Below, one piece after another: positions 23,173 to 33,993 of a DNA stretch of 38,496 bases. The position numbers and the translations under genes are program-made. Each line of letters begins with the position of its first letter. Within the stretch, counting starts at the first letter, position 1. The notes beneath the pieces were generated by a model. That model made no database searches, was not told the DNA's origin, and saw nothing but the letters and a program-made list of their open reading frames with translations. Source of the stretch: a bacterium (GTDB lineage Bacteria; Hydrothermota; Tepidihabitantia; SM23-42; JAOAFX01); the NCBI GenBank assembly GCA_036382775.1, contig DASVHD010000034.1, positions 1-38,496 on the forward strand. The letters run 5' to 3'.

Positions 23173-25447
23173 CGAAAAACGAAAAATAGAAGCTGTAGAA
23201 TCATATCTTTCCGAAGGAACCTTAGAGGAAAAAGCTTCAATCTACAAAATTCATAGAAATACGCTCTGGCGATGGGTTAAGCGTTATCACGCGGACGGTT
23301 TTAAAAATTCCTTAACTCGACAATTTTCCATGAGACACTGGCAGCGAACAGCTGCAAATGTTGAGGACAGAATTGTAACGCTGAAAGAATTCAACCCGTC
23401 GTTAACAGTCCGCAAGGCTCAAATGATTTTAAAAAAAACCGGGATAAGAATTTCCTTGAAAGGAATCTGGAATATCTGGAAAAGGTTCGGCTATTGCGGG
23501 TTTATGAGAAATCGATTTACTCCATCGTATCGGGATTATGTAAGTGCTTCTTCGATTTCAAAGGAGTTGCTTTGCAAGATAACTGCATTGGTTGAAGAAG
23601 GAAGGGTTGAAGAAGCAGCCGCCTTAATAAATCGACTGCCGGTCTATATGGACATGGAAACATTGAGGAAAATTCCGGAATCATTCCTTTCCGTGAGGAG
23701 AAAAGTTGAGCGACTCGGTGCTGAATTCGGTATCATCCCCCTTCCTCAATTACGACATAAAGCCAAGGTTTTGAGAGAACAGCTTGAAAAGCGGAAAATG
23801 TGGTATTCAGCGCTGAGAGCAACGGTTGATGAGGGTTATGCCCTGATGTGGATGGGCCGGCCGAAGGAGCTGCTGAGATTGGTAGTCAAATTAAAAAAGA
23901 AAAAAGAAGGTTTGAGGGATCCAGGATTACGCTTCGCAATTCTCTTGCTTGAAGGCCATGCATATGGCAGTCTCCTGCAAATTCCCAGGGCATTACAATG
24001 TGCCAGGGAATGTAAAAGGATCATCCAAAGTCTCGGTAATTCTTACGTCTTGATGGGTGAACTTTCCGGATTTTATTCGGTCATAGGATACTACCGAGAA
24101 GCAATTTTTTGGGCAAAAAAAGCGCTTGAAGGAATCGGCGGCGATTATCGAAAACACCTCTGTGCGAGTCTCGTGGGGTATCTTACCACCTCGGGTGATT
24201 ATCGCTCTGCAACCGGAATCTTAAAAGAAGGGAAATCAGAGGAATGGGATTACAGTTCAAGGGCGCTTCTTTGCGAAGCATTTATCAGTCTCAACAAAGG
24301 CGATTTTCAAGAAGCTTCTTCATTGGCAGTCAAGGCCTTGGAGCAATCAATAAAGGAGGGAATCAAAAGATACTTCCACTTGACAACTTTCATTCTTGCC
24401 TGTTGCCATGCGTCGGCTGGTGAGAAAGAAGCAGCACGGGTGCTATTAAGAAGATATAATCCATTGCTAAAGAAATATCACCTGGAAAAGGAGTACTTCT
24501 TAAGGCGGATTTTATTGGGAGACTTTAATTTGTCAAATAACGCTCTGCTCGTACCCTCCCTCCGATTGGCACATCTTTTTTATCAGGCTAAGATAACCAT
24601 GAAAGCAAAAAACTATCGTAAAGCTTTGAGATATGCCCGTTCGCAAGAACTTTTCGGGCTTTTTGAGCGTCTTGCCTTATTCTTTCCCGAAGTAGTGGTG
24701 CATCTTTTAAGGAAGGGCAAGAACCCAAGACTGCCCAGGTCTCTCTTGGTGATGCCGATATTTCAAATCGAATCACCTGTGTATAATCTCAAATTTCTTG
24801 GCAGATTAAGAATATGCAAGGGTGAAAATCCAATAAGAAAATCAGGTTTGAGTCCAAAGGATGCCGCCTTCTTGATCCACATGTCACTGCATAAAAACCG
24901 CAGAATGTTATTATCTGACATATGCCTTAATTTCTGGCCTAAAAGCAAGACCCCTTCGAGAAATCTTTCCCATTTATTAGTACGAATTAAGAAAACAATT
25001 AATCTATCATCAAGCCTTTTGAAAGTTAACAGCGATTCACTGGAATGGAAATTTCATGTTTCAACGGATTACGAGCTGTTCAAGGAAACACTCGCTCAGG
25101 CAAAAGCGCTGGAGCGAGGCGGTGAGTGGATATTTGCCAAAAAAGAATATCTGCGGGCATTTAAGTTATTTCGGGGTGAGCCATTCAAAAAGAATTACGA
25201 CGAATGGTCATTGAACTTAAGGCATAAGATTCTAACGCAAGTTGAAACCGAAACCACGAATTTTGCGAAAAGTTGTCTGGAGCACGGGAACAAGCGGGAC
25301 GCCAGAAAAGTCTTGGCGATGATGTTGAAGATAATGCCTGATTCGAAAGATCTAAGGAATTGGCTGGCAGAAAAAATCCCGTTAGGGGAGTGTGATCCCC
25401 TAACGGGACATTTGCCCGTAATCGGTATTAAAGAGCTTTCCAGATAA
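23162..25447 (+). CDS. large SARP/BTAD-type regulator with transposase-like HTH
   Basis: 761 residues. The N-terminus (1-115) has two helix-turn-helix units like those of IS-type transposases (LEEKASIYKIHRNTLWRWVK; SLTVRKAQMILKKTGIRISL). A long helical, TPR-like region follows (about 130-500). Residues 540-625 look like a winged helix of the SARP type (LKFLGRLRICKGENPIRKSG, LLSDICLNFWP). Residues 632-735 look like a bacterial transcriptional activator (BTAD) domain. It is transcribed divergently from the secreted-protein operon and is its obvious candidate regulator. Residues 737-761 are encoded by the 139-bp repeat, including the terminator hairpin, so the original C-terminus was probably replaced. 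It overlaps the convergent dehydrogenase gene by 20 bases. Confidence 0.75.
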   Translation: MTPDEKRKIEAVESYLSEGTLEEKASIYKIHRNTLWRWVKRYHADGFKNSLTRQFSMRHWQRTAANVEDRIVTLKEFNPSLTVRKAQMILKKTGIRISLKGIWNIWKRFGYCGFMRNRFTPSYRDYVSASSISKELLCKITALVEEGRVEEAAALINRLPVYMDMETLRKIPESFLSVRRKVERLGAEFGIIPLPQLRHKAKVLREQLEKRKMWYSALRATVDEGYALMWMGRPKELLRLVVKLKKKKEGLRDPGLRFAILLLEGHAYGSLLQIPRALQCARECKRIIQSLGNSYVLMGELSGFYSVIGYYREAIFWAKKALEGIGGDYRKHLCASLVGYLTTSGDYRSATGILKEGKSEEWDYSSRALLCEAFISLNKGDFQEASSLAVKALEQSIKEGIKRYFHLTTFILACCHASAGEKEAARVLLRRYNPLLKKYHLEKEYFLRRILLGDFNLSNNALLVPSLRLAHLFYQAKITMKAKNYRKALRYARSQELFGLFERLALFFPEVVVHLLRKGKNPRLPRSLLVMPIFQIESPVYNLKFLGRLRICKGENPIRKSGLSPKDAAFLIHMSLHKNRRMLLSDICLNFWPKSKTPSRNLSHLLVRIKKTINLSSSLLKVNSDSLEWKFHVSTDYELFKETLAQAKALERGGEWIFAKKEYLRAFKLFRGEPFKKNYDEWSLNLRHKILTQVETETTNFAKSCLEHGNKRDARKVLAMMLKIMPDSKDLRNWLAEKIPLGECDPLTGHLPVIGIKELSR
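25371..25408 (-). terminator. intrinsic terminator (repeat copy B)
   Basis: A 13-bp stem (25377-25389 and 25396-25408) around the loop GTGTGA. On the minus strand it is followed by a run of six T, so it ends the GcvH-LarA-dehydrogenase transcript. Three substitutions relative to copy A spoil the T-run in the plus direction, where it lies inside the regulator's coding frame. Confidence 0.88.
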
Positions 25448-25510
25448 TTTCCTGTAAACCCAGAACGTTGAGCTTACCACCGCCTTTATCGGCGACCGCG
25501 GTCGCCGCGG
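25372..25510 (-). repeat. 139-bp direct repeat, copy B (within the intact gene end)
   Basis: The counterpart of 17978-18116, in the same orientation and 7394 bases away. Here it is continuous with the full FAD/Fe-S dehydrogenase gene, so this is the original or restored copy. Differences from copy A fall at 25409, 25410 and 25415 only. The 16-bp palindrome lies at 25491-25506. Confidence 0.9.
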
Positions 25511-27923
25511 TCTTGAGCACCTGCTCGCAGGTAGCACAGGCCGTAACCAGCGTTTCCGCTTTTGTTCTGAGCGCTTCCTTTATCCGTTCTTCGGCGATCT
25601 TATTGGACAGTGTGTTGTCCGACACGAGAATGCCGCCGCCGCCGCCGCAGCACCGCGACGTGTCCTGCTTGTATTTCATTTCCACAAGTTCCAGACCGAG
25701 CGCCTTGATGATCTCGCGGGGTTCTTTGGTGATCTTGGCACCCCGTGACAGGTCGCAAGGATCATGGTACGTGACCTTACCGGCCTGTTTTTTCACCTGA
25801 GCGCCGGGCAGCTTTTCGGCGATAACCTGCAACGCGTGTTTCGCCTGGATCTTGTAGGCTTCGTTCAGATAGACCGTGCACGTCGGGCAAAGGGTGATCG
25901 CGGTCTTGAACGGGAAGAGCTCGGTGAACTTCTTTTTGTGCTCCTCGAATTCCTTGACAAAACCCAGCGCTTCCATCGGGTAACCGCAGCATACTTCCTT
26001 GACCACTTTCGGCTTGATGCCGATCTTTTCCAGAAGCTTTAAGTACATCTTGGTCTTGTTGGGTCGAGCCAGGAACTGGCAGCCGACGAATACCGGCGTC
26101 TCGCCTTCCTGGACCGGCGCCATCACCTCGGTGTCGGCGAAAATATTGCCGGTCTTTTTGATGTTGGCGATGAACGTCTTGTGCGCGTCGTACGCGAACC
26201 CCTTTTCCACGAGATCTGCCCGGGCCGCGCGCACGACATCCGGCACCTTCACCTTCGACGGGCACCGGCGGTTACAGTCCCGGCATAAAGTGCACTGGTA
26301 CAGCGCCTTCACGACCGAATCATCGATCTCCAGCTCTTTTTCCAGGATGCCGTAGGACATGACCATGCGGCCGCGGCCTGACGGCGGGTCCCACAACTGG
26401 TTGACGAATGTGGGACAGACGTTCTTGCAATAACCGCACATCGTACACATCATCATTTCGTTTTCCCATTTTGCCAGGTGCCCTTCGAGCTTGCGGTTGG
26501 GATTTGTCGGGTAGCGCAGTTCATACATGAACCCTTTGTCCCAGTCGAACATCTTGTGCGGGTTCATGATATTATTCGGGTCCATTGCCTTTTTGATCGC
26601 TCTCATGACCGGGATGACAGTGTGCTTTTCCTTGTGGAATTCTTCTGCCTTCGTTATAGCTATCCCATGTTCGCCGCTGGTAGTACCGCCTAACTCCCTG
26701 ATCAGCTGATATATCTCCGCCACCGCTTTTTTTGCCTGTTCCCAGTGCTTGGGGTCGGTCGGCGTCATCAGCACTTTGGTATGCAGGTTCCCGTCGCCCG
26801 CATGCCCATACGGCGGGATTATGATATCGTATTTCTCGGAGATCGCCCAGATACCGGCGACCGCCTGAGGTATTTTTGAGACCGGTACCGCCATATCATC
26901 GGCCAGCATCGTGGTCGCATATTCCTGCTTTAAAATACTGAGCGACGGGATCATTTGTTTCCTTGCTTTCCAGATCTCCGCGATCTTAGCTTCATCCTCG
27001 GTAAACTCGACCGACACCGCACCGGCATCTTTGCAGATCTTGACGACGATATCGACATCCAGTTTTATCGTTTCGGGACGGCCATCGATCTCGATGAGCA
27101 GTATTCCTGCAACTTCAGGTAGGCTCATTTTAGCCGCTTTATTTACGGCCTTAATGCAGGGTGCCGACATGATTTCAAGCTGCGATGGGATTAGCGGCTT
27201 TGCGATAATATTGGCTACGCACTGACCGGCTTTTTCCAGATCGTCAAATGCCGCGATACAACCCGCGATTTTGGGCGGCAAAGGGACAACTTTCATGTTG
27301 ATCTCGGTTATAATGCCGAGCATGCCTTCGGACCCGCACATCAGCCGTTCGATCTGATAGCCGGTTGAATGCTTGATGGTTTTGGTGCCGGTGTACGCGA
27401 TCTCGCCGGTGGGCAGCACGACTTCCAGGCCCAGCACATAGTCCCTGGTCGCCCCGTATTTAACCGCCTTTTCGCCCGACGCGTTGATCGCCACCATGCC
27501 GCCCAGAGTCGCGACTTCGCTCGATGCCGGGCCCGGGATGAAATACTTCATAGGTTTGATCGCGGCGTTGAAAACGTCGCAGACGACGCCGGGTTCGCTG
27601 ACCACAAACATATCCCCCATTCGGATATCCTTGATTTTATTCATACGCTGCATGTCGACCGAGATCCCGCCGTCAATGGGCACTGAATGCCCGCACAGCG
27701 CGGAACCTGCTCCGCGCGGAACGACCGGCACTTTGTATTTGTTCGCGAGTTGGACGATCTTCTGAACCTGTACCGTGTTCTGCGGCTGGACCACGACATC
27801 GGGCTTCTTGCGATGGATGCCGCCGTCAAAGGCGTACACGTAGAGCTCCGCGTTGCTGGTCTTGCAGTATTCGCTGCCGACGATGTCCTGCAGCTGTTTG
27901 ATAATATCCTTGCTGATTGCCAT
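25428..27923 (-). CDS. fused FAD / Fe-S 2-hydroxyacid dehydrogenase (GlcD-GlcF type)
   Basis: 831 residues joining two usual subunits. The N-terminal half (1 to about 460) is a GlcD-like FAD protein (VPRGAGSALCGHSVPIDGG, TLGGMVAINASGEKAVKYGA, GHAGDGNLHTK, SGEHGIAITK). The second half begins with two 4Fe-4S motifs, CTMCGYCKNVCP (about 492-503) and CTLCRDCNRRCPSK (about 543-556). Two cysteine-rich domains with CCGYPMEALG (about 645) and CCGGGGG (about 757) follow, as in GlcF and HdrD-like proteins. It should oxidise lactate, glycolate or a similar acid and pass electrons on. AAGGAG precedes the ATG. It lies about 200 bases after the LarA homologue on the same strand. Confidence 0.9.
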   Translation of the reverse strand: MAISKDIIKQLQDIVGSEYCKTSNAELYVYAFDGGIHRKKPDVVVQPQNTVQVQKIVQLANKYKVPVVPRGAGSALCGHSVPIDGGISVDMQRMNKIKDIRMGDMFVVSEPGVVCDVFNAAIKPMKYFIPGPASSEVATLGGMVAINASGEKAVKYGATRDYVLGLEVVLPTGEIAYTGTKTIKHSTGYQIERLMCGSEGMLGIITEINMKVVPLPPKIAGCIAAFDDLEKAGQCVANIIAKPLIPSQLEIMSAPCIKAVNKAAKMSLPEVAGILLIEIDGRPETIKLDVDIVVKICKDAGAVSVEFTEDEAKIAEIWKARKQMIPSLSILKQEYATTMLADDMAVPVSKIPQAVAGIWAISEKYDIIIPPYGHAGDGNLHTKVLMTPTDPKHWEQAKKAVAEIYQLIRELGGTTSGEHGIAITKAEEFHKEKHTVIPVMRAIKKAMDPNNIMNPHKMFDWDKGFMYELRYPTNPNRKLEGHLAKWENEMMMCTMCGYCKNVCPTFVNQLWDPPSGRGRMVMSYGILEKELEIDDSVVKALYQCTLCRDCNRRCPSKVKVPDVVRAARADLVEKGFAYDAHKTFIANIKKTGNIFADTEVMAPVQEGETPVFVGCQFLARPNKTKMYLKLLEKIGIKPKVVKEVCCGYPMEALGFVKEFEEHKKKFTELFPFKTAITLCPTCTVYLNEAYKIQAKHALQVIAEKLPGAQVKKQAGKVTYHDPCDLSRGAKITKEPREIIKALGLELVEMKYKQDTSRCCGGGGGILVSDNTLSNKIAEERIKEALRTKAETLVTACATCEQVLKTAATAVADKGGGKLNVLGLQEIIWKAL

Positions 27924-27940
27924 TTAAACTCCTTTCAAAG

Positions 27941-27955
27941 CCGCGCTAAGCGCGG
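27941..27955 (-). promoter_or_regulatory. GC hairpin just upstream of a ribosome binding site
   Basis: CCGCGC-TAA-GCGCGG forms a 6-bp stem a few bases before the AAGGAG of the dehydrogenase gene. It has no T-run on the minus strand, so it is not a terminator. It may shape translation or mark a processing site. Confidence 0.3.
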
Positions 27956-27957
27956 TA

Positions 27958-28123
27958 AAATCCTAATTTCTAAACTCTAATTTCCGCTTCGTGTCGAATA
28001 CTCAGCATGAGACATAAACAATATCCAAGCACAAAATCCCAATATTCTAAACATCTGCCATTGTTAAGGAATTTTGATATTCGAATTTGTTTAGGATTTA
28101 GGATTTCGTAATTAGAATTTTCC
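27958..28123. repeat. second AAATTCTAAA-type interspersed repeat
   Basis: The left part has AAATCCTAATTTCTAAACTC-like units and the right part GTTTAGGATTTAGGATTTCG. It is the same family and the same imperfect fold-back as 5362-5523. It lies between the LarA and dehydrogenase genes, that is inside an apparent operon. Confidence 0.6.
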
Positions 28124-28126
28124 ATA

Positions 28127-29374
28127 TTATCCGATCAGTGGTACGGTTATGCTGCCGTCCATCAGGAAAGTGACTTTGGCGTCCTTGCCTTTGACGGCAA
28201 GGGCCTTGTCGACCGCTTCCTGCAGGCTGTGGAACGGCTTGATGAATATCGCGTTCATATCCTTGTCCGCGAGGTCCGTGACGCCCCACATCTCGGCCCA
28301 GGTACCGATCTCGGCCATCTTCGATGCCTTGTGATAACCGAGCTTGTAACCCTTTGCGATCTTATCCAGCGCGTCCTGCGGTGATTTGCATGAAGAAAGC
28401 AGCTCGAAAAACGCGGGTTCACCGATGCCGGTGCGGCATTTGGAGACCATGATCAGGATGCCGCCGTCTTTCAAAGCGAGTTTGCCGTTATCCAGCGCTT
28501 TCTGCGACTGATAAAGGTCGACATCCATCGGGTATGGCGCTATGCTCACGACGATATCCGCCTTTGCCGGCACTTTGACGCAGAACACCTCCTTGGCCTT
28601 GTCGACCGCCGCGTAGAAAGAATCGTGGATGTGGCCGCTGGTCACGCCGTACAGCCGGCGCTCTCCGTCGAGCACGGTCTGGATCGAGAAGATCTCCTTG
28701 TCCGCGATGACCTTAAGCGCGTCGATCATGTCCTCGTGCACCGGATTCCCGTCGAGAACCAGAGCCTGGGCTTCCATTTTAAGGGCATGCTTGTGATTCT
28801 GTTCGATCGTCTTCCGCGAGGCGATCCCGGGCAGGAACGATTTCCGTCCCCCCGTATACCCTCCGAAATAATGCGGTTCCACCGAACCGATGATCACGAT
28901 CTTGTGGGCGTTCATGCCCAGCTTATTGACATACATTTCGGTACCGTTCTTGGAGGTGCCGATATGCACCATGTCCTCTTCCTTTTTACAGTCGTGCACG
29001 TGGATTAATCCATTGAACTTCGCATAGTATTTGCCGAATATGAAATCGAATTCCTCCTGGGTCGGCGCCCGGTGCACTCCGGTTGCCACGACGAACTTGA
29101 TGTTTTTATCCTGGATCTGGTCCTGGATCATATCCAGCACTTTCGCGGTCGGTGTCGGCCGGGTACCGTCATTCACGATGAACAGAATGTCTCGGGCATT
29201 GGACAGGAATTCTTTGAAGGTCTTCGACTTGATCGGTTTTTCGATGGCGTCAAGCAGGATCTTACTCTCGTTCTGTTCCTTTACCTCGTTGGGGTATACC
29301 ACTGCAAGGATATTCTTGTCCGCGATTTTGACATTTAGTTTATCGTCCTTACCATAAGGAATCTGAAGATCCAT
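28127..29374 (-). CDS. larA: LarA-family nickel-dependent lactate racemase homologue
   Basis: 415 residues of the LarA (DUF2088) family, which isomerises 2-hydroxyacids using a nickel-pincer cofactor. The residues matching those known to matter in the Lactobacillus enzyme are present: NDGTRPTP (68-75), His101 in ATGVHRAPT, His168 and Lys178 in EPHYFGGYTGGRKSFLPG, and His194. The family covers several substrates, so lactate is likely but not certain. The neighbouring FAD/Fe-S dehydrogenase suggests that LarA supplies the correct stereoisomer for oxidation. AAGGAGGT lies about five bases before the ATG. No larB, larC or larE maturation genes are in the window. Confidence 0.88.
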   Translation of the reverse strand: MDLQIPYGKDDKLNVKIADKNILAVVYPNEVKEQNESKILLDAIEKPIKSKTFKEFLSNARDILFIVNDGTRPTPTAKVLDMIQDQIQDKNIKFVVATGVHRAPTQEEFDFIFGKYYAKFNGLIHVHDCKKEEDMVHIGTSKNGTEMYVNKLGMNAHKIVIIGSVEPHYFGGYTGGRKSFLPGIASRKTIEQNHKHALKMEAQALVLDGNPVHEDMIDALKVIADKEIFSIQTVLDGERRLYGVTSGHIHDSFYAAVDKAKEVFCVKVPAKADIVVSIAPYPMDVDLYQSQKALDNGKLALKDGGILIMVSKCRTGIGEPAFFELLSSCKSPQDALDKIAKGYKLGYHKASKMAEIGTWAEMWGVTDLADKDMNAIFIKPFHSLQEAVDKALAVKGKDAKVTFLMDGSITVPLIG

Positions 29375-29488: not shown

Positions 29489-29914
29489 TTATTTTTTAGC
29501 TTTCGCCAGCTGGGCGTCGATGAATTTGGTGACTCCGTCCGCGCCAAAAGCGAGGTTTTTCAGTTCCGCGTCCAGTTTCGACGGCTTTACCTTGATGATC
29601 CAGCCGCCGCCGTAAGGATCCTTGTTTATCAGCCGGCAGTCATTCTCAAGTTCCCGGTTGACTTCCGTGATCTCGCCGGAGATCGGCGAAACGAACTTGC
29701 CGACCCACTTTGACGACTGGATCTTGCCGCAGGTCTCCCCCTGCGTCACGGTGTCGCCTTCAAAAGGCAGATCCACGTAGGTCGTGTCGCCGGCCTGTTT
29801 CTGGTAAAAATCATCCATGCCGACCTTCACGGTGCCGTCAGCTTCAACCTTCACCCAGGTGTCTTCCTGGTGATAATAAAGATCCTCGGGCATATTATAT
29901 CCCTTTATGTCCAT
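29489..29914 (-). CDS. gcvH: glycine cleavage system H-like lipoyl protein
   Basis: 141 residues. The lipoyl-attachment Lys69 lies in QSSKW, followed by VSPISGEITEVNRELEND, and the start DTWVKVEADGTVKVGMDD matches GcvH. H protein carries the aminomethyl group on its lipoyl arm, but no gcvT, gcvP or lpd gene is near. It instead opens the LarA-dehydrogenase unit. GGGAGGT lies six bases before the ATG. A role other than glycine cleavage is possible. The unusual features are its isolation and the C-terminal tail rich in Lys and Ala. Confidence 0.9.
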   Translation of the reverse strand: MDIKGYNMPEDLYYHQEDTWVKVEADGTVKVGMDDFYQKQAGDTTYVDLPFEGDTVTQGETCGKIQSSKWVGKFVSPISGEITEVNRELENDCRLINKDPYGGGWIIKVKPSKLDAELKNLAFGADGVTKFIDAQLAKAKK

Positions 29915-30238
29915 TTAAGACCTCCCTCATTGATTGATTTAACCAATTGTTATTTAACCAATAATTAACCGAATCTAGCCCCAAATAACCAAAGGTAATT
30001 GGCGCAAGCTTTTCGAATAGAAATATTATGATGTTTGTTGCAGCCTGAGCGCATGATTATCAATTGAAATTATATGGATTTTAAGGGTGAAGTCAAGCAC
30101 AGACGTAAGCGCTATGCCGTGTCATTGCGAGTCCGCCAAGTAGTATGGCGGATGAAGCAATCTCATCTGTTTCTCCCGTTGCAGAGATTGCTTCGTCGTT
30201 CCTTCAGCACTCCTCGCAATGACAGAAAATGTTTTTCT
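29915..30238. other. 324-bp intergenic stretch with repeats, no gene
   Basis: The left part (29935-29990) contains four AACCAA/TTAACC-type units. The right part holds a palindromic GTCATTGCGA element. I see no clear promoter for the GcvH gene; a CATAAT on the minus strand near 30025-30030 has no matching -35. Confidence 0.5.
30121..30223. repeat. GTCATTGCGA palindromic interspersed element
   Basis: The ends GTCATTGCGA (30121-30130) and TCGCAATGAC (30214-30223) are exact reverse complements. Inside them GAAGCAATCTC (30154-30164) pairs with GAGATTGCTTC (30184-30194). Elements with this wording (tcattgcgag, gaagcaatc) are known to me as short palindromic repeats scattered through many unrelated bacterial genomes. 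It lies 15 bases past the stop of the cysteine-desulfurase-like gene. Confidence 0.75.
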
Positions 30239-31471
30239 TTAATCGTTCTGTCCGTGTTCGTGCTCGTAATCCGTTCCGGGCCCGGCCACGTGCCGCGTTC
30301 CGGTTTTAAGGAAAAACGCATACAAGGGCGACATATTGCGCAATTTTTTGACGATGGGCGGAATTTCGGCCAGCACGTAATCAATATCAGTATCGTTGTT
30401 ATACTTGGACAGCGTCATCACGAGGGAACCCTGCGCGATGGCCGCGTCGATCTTGATCGCGGACAGAACATGCGACATCTTCAATGATTTGGAAGTGCAA
30501 GCCGAACCGCTTGTCACATAAATACCCTTTTCATCAAGCAGCAACATCATCCCTTCGCCCTCGACGAACTCAACGGAAAAATTGACATTGTTCGGAAGCC
30601 GTTTTTCCGGGTGGCCGTTCAAATACAAGTAGTCGATATTCCTTGGCAGTTCAGTAATTAGCCGGTCTCGCAATTGCCGCATCCTTTTCGAATTTTCGAC
30701 TGATGCATTCTTGGCAATCCGGCAGGCAGAGCCGAAACCCGTGATCGCCGGTATGTCCTCGGTGCCAGCCCTCCGGCCGCTTTCCTGAATTCCACCGTCG
30801 ATCAGAGGGATGACCCTGACGCCCTTTTTAACATACAGCGCGGCTGCGCCTTTGGGTCCGTGAATTTGAGAACTCGACAAAGACAACAAATCAACACCCA
30901 ATTCTTTCACATTGACCGGGATCACGCCGGCGGTCGAAACCGCGTCGGTATGGAACAGCACGCCTTTGTCATGAGCGATCCTGGCCATTTCATTGATCGG
31001 CTGGATCGTCCCGATCTCCGGGTTGGCATGCTGAATGGAAATTAAAATGGTCTGCGGCTTGATAGCTTTTTTTAGATCATCAGCTGAAACCAGACCGTAC
31101 TTATCCACCGGCAGGTGGGTGATATCAAAACCGGCCTGCTCAAGCCTCCGCGCGGCGTATAAAACGGAGAAATGCTCGATACCGGAAACGATGATATGCT
31201 TGCCTTTTTCCTGGTAAGCCACGGCAATGCCCTTGAGCGCCAGGTTGTTGGCCTCGGAACCGCAGGAAGTAAAATAGATCTCTGGTTCCTGCGCCCCGAT
31301 CAAACCCGCAACTTCCTTTCGCGCTTTATCCAAAGCATCCTTCGCACGGGCGCCGGCTGTATGAATGCTCTGGGCATTGCCATAATATTCTTTCAAATAC
31401 GGCGTCATCTCGACCAACACCCGTTCATCAATCCGGGTTGCCGAATGGTTATCAAGGTAGACTTCGTGCAT
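30239..31471 (-). CDS. cysteine-desulfurase-like protein lacking the PLP lysine
   Basis: 410 residues of the NifS/IscS family by overall pattern: YLDNHSATRIDERV, TSCGSEANNLALKG (68-81), His100 in GIEHFSV, Asp176 in HTDAVS, GRRAGTEDI, and the catalytic-loop Cys325 in TSGSACTS followed by SHVL. The segment expected to read S-G-H-K-x-H/Y-G-P-K-G is LSSSQIHGPKG, so the Schiff-base Lys is Gln202 (codon CAA) and the preceding His is Ser. The usual R-x-S-x-G-R-x-T-T near the end is also changed (GSLVMTLSKYNND). It may be inactive in desulfuration or do other chemistry. It lies 16 bases after fprA with no ribosome binding site, so it is co-transcribed. Confidence 0.85.
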   Translation of the reverse strand: MHEVYLDNHSATRIDERVLVEMTPYLKEYYGNAQSIHTAGARAKDALDKARKEVAGLIGAQEPEIYFTSCGSEANNLALKGIAVAYQEKGKHIIVSGIEHFSVLYAARRLEQAGFDITHLPVDKYGLVSADDLKKAIKPQTILISIQHANPEIGTIQPINEMARIAHDKGVLFHTDAVSTAGVIPVNVKELGVDLLSLSSSQIHGPKGAAALYVKKGVRVIPLIDGGIQESGRRAGTEDIPAITGFGSACRIAKNASVENSKRMRQLRDRLITELPRNIDYLYLNGHPEKRLPNNVNFSVEFVEGEGMMLLLDEKGIYVTSGSACTSKSLKMSHVLSAIKIDAAIAQGSLVMTLSKYNNDTDIDYVLAEIPPIVKKLRNMSPLYAFFLKTGTRHVAGPGTDYEHEHGQND

Positions 31472-31487
31472 GGCAGCCGCTTATATT

Positions 31488-32675
31488 CTAAATCCCGATC
31501 CCAGCAGCCTTGTGTTTTGCCAGAACTGCATCGGCCAGGAGATCAAGTTTTTTCAGGTCATCAACTGTCGGATATCCCTTGATCACAACCGGTTCGATCA
31601 TCTCGACTTTAAGGTTGGTCATGAGGCCCCCGAGCCTTTCGATCACCTGAGTACCCCACCCGAAAGAACCGATAACCGACGCGAACCGGGTCTTGGGGCG
31701 CAGGGCATTGGCAAGAAAGGCCGCATAAGCGACCGTGGGATGCGGTCCGACCAGTACGGTCGGTGCCGCAAGAATTATCGTGGCGGCGTCAACCAGGGCG
31801 ATCGCCAGCTCTCCAATGTCAGTCCGCGGCATGTTGAACGGTTTGACCGTGATCGACCGCTTCATGAGGGCGTCAATGAAATGATCGACCATTGCCCTGG
31901 TGCTGCCGTGCATGGATACGAACGGCAGAACGACCTCGTTCTTCACGTTGTCAGAAACCCAATCCGCATAGGCGTCCACGATAAAGGGCGACTTCGCATG
32001 TACGGGACCGTGACTCGGCGCGATCATCTTTATATCATAGCTTTGAAGCTTTCTCAAATGGCTGACGATATTACTTCTAAACGGCATCATGATCTCGGCG
32101 TAATACCGTTTGGCTGATTCATAGACCCGCGCATCATCATCGGCAAACAAATCGCTGGTTGCCAGGTGCGCGCCGAACAGATCGCATGAGAACAAGATCC
32201 CGTCTTCTTTCAAATAGGTCAGCATTGTTTCGGGCCAGTGAACCCACGGCGCGATGAGGAACTCGAGCGTCCTGTCGCCTAACGACAGGATTTCGTGGTC
32301 GCCCCTGGTGATAAATTTCTCTTCCGGGATCATCAGCAGGCTTTTCAGAAAATCCTTACATTTTAGATTGGTCACGACCATGGCTTCTGGAAAAGCTTTC
32401 AGCACATGCGGTATCGAACCTGAATGATCCTGCTCGGCATGATTGGAGATCACGTAATCGAGCTGGGTAATACCTGCCTTTTTCAGGTTGGAGAACAGTT
32501 CTTCTGCCTTGGCCGGATCGACCGTATCGATTAACGCGGTCTTTTCGCTACCCTTGATCAAGTAGGCGTTGTAGGTCGTGCCGTCTGGCAGGGGGATCAG
32601 CTCGTCGAAAAGTTTGCGGTCCCGGTCCAACGAACCGACCGCGTAAATACCGGGCCTAAGTTCTTTTGTAGGCAT
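31488..32675 (-). CDS. fprA: A-type flavoprotein / flavodiiron O2 or NO reductase
   Basis: 395 residues. The N-terminal metallo-beta-lactamase-like domain holds the diiron ligands His79, Glu81, Asp83 and His84 (NHAEQDHSG), His146 (APWVHWPE), Asp165 (SCDLFGAH) and His222 (PSHGPVH). A flavodoxin domain follows from about 240, with the FMN loop in SMHGSTRAM. Such proteins reduce O2 to water or NO to N2O and protect anaerobes. The usual electron donor is rubredoxin or Hrb, encoded just upstream. AAGGAG lies six bases before the ATG. The full set of ligands indicates an active enzyme. Confidence 0.93.
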   Translation of the reverse strand: MPTKELRPGIYAVGSLDRDRKLFDELIPLPDGTTYNAYLIKGSEKTALIDTVDPAKAEELFSNLKKAGITQLDYVISNHAEQDHSGSIPHVLKAFPEAMVVTNLKCKDFLKSLLMIPEEKFITRGDHEILSLGDRTLEFLIAPWVHWPETMLTYLKEDGILFSCDLFGAHLATSDLFADDDARVYESAKRYYAEIMMPFRSNIVSHLRKLQSYDIKMIAPSHGPVHAKSPFIVDAYADWVSDNVKNEVVLPFVSMHGSTRAMVDHFIDALMKRSITVKPFNMPRTDIGELAIALVDAATIILAAPTVLVGPHPTVAYAAFLANALRPKTRFASVIGSFGWGTQVIERLGGLMTNLKVEMIEPVVIKGYPTVDDLKKLDLLADAVLAKHKAAGIGI

Positions 32676-32699: not shown

Positions 32700-32873
32700 T
32701 CCACTTTGATATCAATAATTTGTTAAATGGTAACTGGTTAAATATTTTTTTTCTTTCCATTTAACCATTTAACTATTTAACTAATCTATTGGTCAAATAT
32801 TCTATTTTTTCCATTTTGTCGTCTTCTTATCAGTTTATTTAACCATTCAACCTTTTAACCATTTAACTAATCT
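32700..32873. repeat. TTAACCATT-type low-complexity repeat
   Basis: TTAACCATTTAACTATTTAAC-like units in both orientations (GGTTAAATA near 32732, AACCATTTAACC near 32763) allow pairing. The string ATTTAACTAATCT occurs twice (about 32775-32787 and 32861-32873). The second copy includes the stop codon of the Hrb gene. It separates hrb from fprA, and similar units occur at 29935-29990. Confidence 0.55.
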
Positions 32874-33583
32874 GCCGGCTCAAACTTGTCTTTCCCTGCC
32901 CCGCATACAGGACACACCCAGTCTGACGGGATTTGTTCAAAAGAGGTGCCCGCGGCAACACCAGTGTCCGGATCGCCTTTTTCCGGATCATATATGTACC
33001 CGCAAACCGTACAACGGTATTTTTTCATTTTCAATTCTCCCTTCAAACTAGCGCCGGCAGGGACCGGTCCCTGCTTCTCATCGTAATATCCAGGGGCCGT
33101 TTTCGGCACCAATCCGTGCTTTACCTCGCGATAGTAGGCATAGGTCATTGGCTGTTTGTCGCTCAGAACTTCGGCTGCCATTGCCTTGCCGATAAAAAGT
33201 GTGTGCGTTGAAGCGTCGACACGCTCCTTGACCTCGACCTCGACAGTGGCGATCGCGTTGTCAGTTACGATCGGCGCGCCCAGTTCCCCAAGGCGGAAAC
33301 CGACGCTATCGAATTTATTGAATGTCCGTCCGGTCTTGAAACCGAAATGCCCGATAAAATTCATGGGCGTATCGACCGCCAGCACCGAAATCGTGAAAAT
33401 ACCGCTCTCCAGGATATATTCATGGGTCAGGTTCTGCTTGTTTATGCAGACGCCGATCAGTACCGGGTCTGATGAAGCCTGAAACACCGCATCGGCTATC
33501 TGACCGTTATGGGCACCGGCTTTATTGTTACTCGAAACCACATACAATCCGTAACTGAACTTCATCAGCGCTTTGTGATCCAT
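32867..33583 (-). CDS. hrb: flavin reductase-rubredoxin fusion (high-molecular-weight rubredoxin)
   Basis: 238 residues. The N-terminal flavin-reductase-like (flavoredoxin) domain covers about 1-165 ([20 protein letters not shown]). The C-terminal rubredoxin (about 186-238) has its iron ligands at Cys191, Cys194, Cys224 and Cys227 ([21 protein letters not shown]). This fusion is known in acetogens as Hrb, which passes electrons from NADH to FprA. FprA is encoded next on the same strand, so the pair forms an O2/NO reductase system. The ATG overlaps the stop codon of the preceding gene (TAATG), indicating coupled translation. The last codons lie in an A/T-rich repeat. Confidence 0.93.
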
Positions 33584-33993
33584 TATTTTCCCTTTTGCAT
33601 TCTTCTTCCCTTATTTTTAGACCGCATACCGTCCCAGATGTTAAGCGCCCGGCGCAGGTGCGGGATCGTTATTGTACCCCCGATAACCGCGGCAATGGCG
33701 AGTGTCTCTTCGAGTTCCTCGTCGGTCACGCCTTCTTCATAACATCGGGCGATATGGTAATGAATGCAGTCGTCGCAGCGCAGAACAAGCGATGACGCCA
33801 GGCCAAGCATTTCCTTTGTCTTTTTACTAAGCGCGCCTTTCTGGTATACGAGCGTATCCAGACTGTATAGACGCTTGATCCCAAGCCGGGCGTATTTCAT
33901 GACGATCCGGTTCAATCTTTCGCGTTCTTTTTTAAAATTTTTAGTCAATCCTATGGCATCCCTTTTCCGCCGCGCATTTTTTGTGTTCGACAT
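33583..33993 (-). CDS. AhpD-like carboxymuconolactone decarboxylase family protein
   Basis: 136 residues. The signature Cys73-x2-Cys76-x3-His80 in [10 protein letters not shown] matches the thiol pair of AhpD-like alkylhydroperoxidases, followed by [20 protein letters not shown]. Such proteins reduce peroxides or take part in thiol exchange. Being the first gene before hrb and fprA, it fits an oxidative-stress unit. The N-terminal 40 residues are rich in Lys and Arg and are longer than usual. Its promoter ends seven bases before the ATG with no ribosome binding site, so the message is probably leaderless. Confidence 0.88.

Follow-up and report, generated by a model that had tools for sequence, protein, structure and literature searches.

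Canonical cysteine desulfurases of the NifS/IscS family, including E. coli IscS, human NFS1 and T. maritima NifS, use L-cysteine. In the E. coli enzyme, Arg354 contacts and holds the cysteine carboxylate, Gln183 forms a hydrogen bond to PLP O3', and variants of Gln183 or of Lys206, the Schiff-base lysine, are inactive (PMC9978102); the C-terminus (residues 376–404) is needed for IscU, as IscS(del376-404) does not bind the scaffold (PMC2854127). Homologues lacking the lysine have been described in archaea. AfIscS, for which structures are available (PDB 4eb5, 4eb7 and 4hvk, and 4r5f for a D199K mutant), has Asp at the lysine position (SSNDIYGPKG), Leu for the carboxylate Arg and Ala for Gln183; one published account describes it as devoid of desulfurase activity and as ligating the IscU cluster through a cysteine (PMC7585200). 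IscS1 of the archaeon Methanosarcina acetivorans (MA0808) is likewise described as lacking the catalytic lysine; its gene lies beside that of IscU1, in a cluster that includes four other genes (PMC7585200). A search of the open-access literature returned no account of a bacterial lysine-less clade or of its link to TusA.

We analysed a 38,496-nucleotide stretch of bacterial DNA (the window), in which positions 30239–31471 of the minus strand hold an intact frame for a lysine-less NifS/IscS homologue of 410 residues. The protein has the type I desulfurase fold (aminotransferase class V; Pfam Aminotran_5, 257 bits) and scored above the cut-off of the IscS subfamily model NF002806 (311 against 304 bits) and below that of the NifS equivalog model NCBIfam TIGR03402 (497.9 against 530.75 bits). 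In place of the family motif S-[AG]-H-K-x-[HY]-G-P-K-G, it reads LSLSSSQIHGPKG (residues 199–208, 30848–30877, minus strand, as for every residue given here), with Gln202, encoded by CAA at 30866–30868, at the position of E. coli Lys206. A preliminary description of the gene was right about the glutamine and placed the motif at 30863–30892; these bases encode residues 194–203, which include Gln202 but only half of the motif. Val351 (30419–30421) stands in place of Arg354, bearing out an earlier claim that the C-terminal block is altered, and Ser179 (30935–30937) in place of Gln183. The Schiff-base lysine and the carboxylate arginine of active desulfurases are thus missing, whereas the mobile-loop persulfide cysteine, Cys325 (30497–30499; E. 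coli Cys328), and His100 (31172–31174; E. coli His104) are present, as is Asp176 (30944–30946), the counterpart of the PLP pyridine nitrogen ligand Asp180. These three residues, also reported in the preliminary description, were invariant in 18 aligned lysine-less homologues. The C-terminus is longer than in E. coli IscS and ends in a His-rich extension, SPLYAFFLKTGTRHVAGPGTDYEHEHGQND (30242–30331), that is conserved in the close subclade.

In its lack of the PLP lysine, the carboxylate arginine and Gln183, its retention of Cys328, His104 and Asp180 and its Ser at E. coli position 106 (Ser102, 31166–31168), the window protein resembles AfIscS; in lacking the catalytic lysine it also resembles M. 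acetivorans IscS1 as published. Unlike AfIscS, it has the His-rich tail and Lys rather than Gln at E. coli position 334 (Lys331, 30479–30481, where the Cys loop ends), and its bacterial clade has Gln, Ser or Thr, not Asp, at the lysine position. With canonical NifS/IscS proteins it shares the fold, the loop cysteine, His104, Asp180 and the IscU-binding end. An AF2 model built from 18 sequences (pLDDT 86.6, pTM 0.86) had NFS1–ISCU2 complexes and AfIscS, with or without IscU, as its best PDB matches (TM 0.88–0.93), with TM 0.93 to NFS1–ISCU2 (6wi2), 0.89 to AfIscS–IscU (4eb5) and 0.90 to E. coli IscS (3lvm). The Cys loop (residues 324–330) and the last 15 residues (396–410, pLDDT below 50) were disordered in the model.

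When genome contigs were scanned with 18 lysine-less proteins, 80 loci were returned; the lysine-less ones among them include members of Elusimicrobiota (with Endomicrobia), Chloroflexota (Dehalococcoidia), Nitrospirota, Acidobacteriota, Omnitrophota, Scalindua and deltaproteobacterial lineages. We aligned 111 proteins, 70 lysine-less and 41 lysine-type, with E. coli IscS from MG1655 and AfIscS read off a PDB alignment. All 41 lysine-type proteins kept Lys206, Gln183, His205, Asn155 and Arg354, whereas Arg354 was gone from 70/70 and Gln183 from 68/70 lysine-less proteins, every one of which retained Cys328, His104 and Asp180. Gln was the commonest replacement for Lys206 (42/70). The preliminary description had asked whether a Gln202 clade exists; a lysine-less clade does, with mixed residues at this position. 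Position 106 was Ser in 68/68 proteins of the bacterial clade, 2/2 of the AfIscS type and 1/41 of the lysine type, in which Ala prevailed (37/41); 66/68 bacterial-clade proteins had Lys at position 334, against 0/41 lysine-type proteins. By this alignment, Ser106 and Lys334 are two gains that mark the bacterial clade. Because Lys206, Arg354 and Gln183 are lost together and the corresponding E. coli mutants are known, cysteine desulfurase activity is very unlikely for the window protein and its clade, although annotation pipelines call such proteins cysteine desulfurases; metabolic reconstructions should not count these genes as such. Lysine-less NifS proteins of Desulfobacterales (L121:1693-2865 and L161:4045-5211) carry an unusual SGI[PS]LGAPKG motif, and their genes adjoin those for TusA and IscU.

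In a tree built without the active-site columns, the bacterial lysine-less proteins formed one branch (support 100/100); a second branch, also with support 100/100, joined AfIscS to a Methanophagales protein and lay among lysine-type proteins. Two lysine losses were required in 96% of bootstrap trees, and separate origins in the bacterial clade and the AfIscS branch appear to be favoured by these sequences, although an AU test did not reject a single shared origin (p 0.34). AfIscS-like proteins without the lysine were already known; the bacterial branch is large and previously unremarked, and its links to TusA/DsrE and to O2/NO defence are new. What had been one archaeal oddity is thereby extended to a class whose members occur in Elusimicrobiota, Chloroflexota, Nitrospirota and Acidobacteriota, among others.

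The window gene begins 16 bp after a gene on the same strand for a flavodiiron protein of the O2/NO reductase family (31488–32675, minus strand; ODP, 90 bits), a gap that agrees with the preliminary description, and the two genes are probably co-transcribed. Farther upstream on the minus strand lie a flavin reductase–rubredoxin fusion (32867–33583; Pfam Flavin_Reduct and Rubredoxin), which is likely to be the electron donor to the flavodiiron protein, and an AhpD-like carboxymuconolactone decarboxylase-family protein (33583–33993; CMD, 67 bits) with a possible part in peroxide defence.

From the residue pattern, the clade, the predicted fold and gene linkage, we consider that the window protein is probably a catalytically inactive paralogue of IscS, dedicated to IscU as its scaffold. 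It retains the type I fold, the C-terminal region for IscU binding and the cysteine of the mobile loop, but would be unable to make the internal Schiff base with PLP or to hold a cysteine substrate. It would most likely dock onto IscU as in the (IscS–IscU)2 complex, a partnership suggested by gene linkage and the AfIscS precedent, and would offer Cys325 as a ligand or persulfide acceptor during cluster building. Sulfur would come from outside its own active site, in the source organism as sulfide or from another persulfide donor and in many relatives through a TusA/DsrE relay whose genes share its operon. Sulfide is a plausible source because E. coli without IscS can use H2S through IscU anaerobically (PMC13015791). 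The flavodiiron operon suggests that the protein may serve in the making or repair of Fe–S clusters under O2/NO exposure.

Gene neighbourhoods were compared for 82 NifS genes in named loci (49 lysine-less, 33 lysine-type), with neighbours checked by Pfam (TusA, DrsE_2, DsrE, Rrf2, Hemerythrin–DUF438, Prismane (Hcp), Desulfoferrodoxin, Glutaredoxin, FeThRed_B, Rubrerythrin-family ferritin-like proteins and NifU_N). IscU lay no more than 1 kb from 39/49 lysine-less genes, those of the close named relatives L084, L104 and L114 among them, and from 23/33 lysine-type genes; being common in both groups, this adjacency shows partnership and does not set the lysine-less clade apart. Genes for O2/NO defence (flavodiiron protein, Hcp, desulfoferrodoxin or ferritin-like proteins) occurred within 4 kb of 15/49 lysine-less genes and 0/33 lysine-type genes, and a flavodiiron gene also neighbours the lysine-less NifS at L040, L044 and L046. 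The preliminary description had suggested a role tied to O2/NO stress and asked about linkage to fprA; linkage to defence genes is indeed frequent, but the chief conserved neighbour is IscU, which had not been foreseen, and not the flavodiiron gene. Nor had it been foreseen that the structure of one lysine-less IscS, AfIscS, is already solved. Characteristic orders were flavin reductase–rubredoxin, Hcp, flavodiiron, lysine-less NifS in family f9; lysine-less NifS, IscU, flavodiiron in Endomicrobia; and Rrf2, TusA, lysine-less NifS, IscU in Nitrospirota. In family f6 (L047–L049, L054–L058), lysine-less NifS is followed by IscU, glutaredoxin, FTR/rubredoxin and a thiamine-binding protein, a string that suggests a disulfide or persulfide reductase as part of the system.

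A more specific form of the IscU-dedicated reading, to which we give rather less than an even chance, is that Cys325 takes persulfide from TusA/DsrE carriers and hands it to IscU, using inorganic sulfur without desulfurase chemistry. TusA lay within 3 kb of 33/49 lysine-less but 1/33 lysine-type genes, and DsrE near 14/49 against 1/33, counts that are not phylogenetically independent and that used TusA and DsrE profiles built from the lysine-less loci. The sole lysine-type gene near either is at Methanophagales locus L150; there, TusA and DsrE lie next to the second gene of the locus, which is of the Asp type. Fisher p values (1.6e-9 for TusA, 0.003 for DsrE and 2e-4 for O2/NO genes) are descriptive, as relatives share operons. 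A TusA motif scan of 47 lysine-type loci gave four matches, none of them TusA-like. The same TusA–DsrE–NifS(Asp)–IscU set found at L150 recurs in family f2, which belongs to the order of the source organism (L064, L065, L066, L068 and L071), as operons with an AfIscS-type SSNDIYGPKG NifS and long IscU frames, and TusA docks on E. coli IscS (PMC2854127). Against a transfer of this kind, the source genome yielded no TusA, DrsE_2 or rhodanese, and families f5 and f7 and most f6 genomes also lack TusA. A TusA/DsrE relay was accordingly set aside for the source organism; it is plausible in relatives that hold both proteins. More broadly, and only tentatively, lysine-less IscS (of one or perhaps two origins) with TusA, DsrE and IscU could constitute a widespread desulfurase-free route that feeds sulfur to Fe–S clusters in anaerobes, alongside O2/NO-defence genes. 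The lysine-less class makes it testable how anaerobes supply IscU with sulfur and whether IscS acts on IscU apart from making persulfide.

The source genome (G000; 3.06 Mb, 95.6% complete) holds three class V genes above 250 bits: the window gene, a lysine-type NifS with mnmA directly after it, and a third, whose protein is more distant and carries a GHKS motif. The pairing of the lysine-type copy with mnmA was counted in favour of a dead paralogue dedicated to IscU, as were IscU adjacency, TusA in 33/49 neighbourhoods and the absence of SUFBD_core from the source genome in a profile search in which 14/14 controls were positive. SUF was accordingly rejected as the main scaffold. SUFBD_core is missing from 58/61 genomes of the class, most of the nearly complete ones included, leaving IscU-type scaffolds only. 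The single IscU of the source genome, with all five key residues conserved, lies on another contig, between ferritin-like genes (c8/c8/c10), desulfoferrodoxin and an FTR–rubredoxin protein; that it is not adjacent, and that TusA, DrsE_2 and rhodanese were not found, counts against the relay and an IscU operon link in this genome. In families f5 and f7, lysine-less NifS comes directly after these ferritin-like genes, in f7 with IscU next to it, and G037 has the order c10–c8–c8–lysine-less NifS–IscU, which ties the NifS and IscU islands of the source genome together.

Lysine-less and lysine-type copies coexist in the source genome and in ten further genomes with a lysine-less copy, 10/10 of which also hold a full lysine-type NifS. 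This coexistence would suit a regulatory subunit that tunes the active enzyme under O2/NO stress, either in mixed dimers with the lysine-type NifS or by competition for IscU; a dead paralogue is described, in trypanosomatids, as activating deoxyhypusine synthase (PMC3663545). We regard such a role as unlikely, because the two copies of the source genome are only 48% identical and lie in different operons, and because the loss of Arg354, Gln183 and Lys206 with retention of the loop cysteine points to a role in handling sulfur or as a ligand. The coexistence also counts against the dead, IscU-dedicated paralogue, since the full lysine-type NifS could feed IscU itself; under that reading, the lysine-type NifS of the same cell may also supply persulfide.

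The preliminary description had also raised the takeover of Schiff-base chemistry by another lysine. One candidate exists, Lys331, whose conservation across the clade, together with the retained His104 and Asp180, would fit a PLP enzyme that remains active with a substitute lysine or that has another substrate or reaction. However, this position is Gln in the AfIscS lineage and also Lys in the lysine-type PDB enzyme 9wep, both Arg354 and Gln183 are missing, and Lys331 sits where the Cys loop ends, beside model-disordered residues 324–330; we therefore judge an active enzyme to be improbable.

The missing lysine is not an error in the sequence, as the preliminary description had also argued: the alignment placed Gln202 at the Schiff-base position, and the lysine is missing from every close homologue. 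Among 60 related genomes, homologues at 60–72% identity (families f1, that of the window gene, and f9) all had Gln or Thr instead, and those at about 50% identity in families f5, f6 and f7 had Ser or Thr. From Ca. Desantisbacteria, the nearest named homologue is L084; at 70% identity, it has SSSQIYGPKG against SSSQIHGPKG in the window protein. This agreement among relatives rules out a misread or misassembled codon 202. Differences from L011 at codon positions 1, 2 and 3 (0.24/0.11/0.63) indicate that the gene is under purifying selection. A decaying pseudogene or misread sequence, which the loss of several catalytic residues might suggest, can be dismissed given conservation across phyla, an intact frame, third-position bias and the same replacement in independent genomes, so that the clade already contradicts it.

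Other features lie close to the gene. Just past its stop codon, at 30116–30232, is an imperfect palindromic element (TGTCATTGCGAG...GAAGCAATCTC / GAGATTGCTTC...CTCGCAATGACA) with 23 matches in its own genome. At 25428–29374, a LarA-type nickel-dependent racemase homologue, closest to the LarAH6 malate racemase but under its cut-off, stands beside a GlcD–CCG fusion oxidase, and the two may form a 2-hydroxyacid racemase/dehydrogenase pair. Between the NifS and LarA genes sits a GcvH-like lipoyl protein (29489–29914); stand-alone lipoyl proteins occur in sulfur oxidation.
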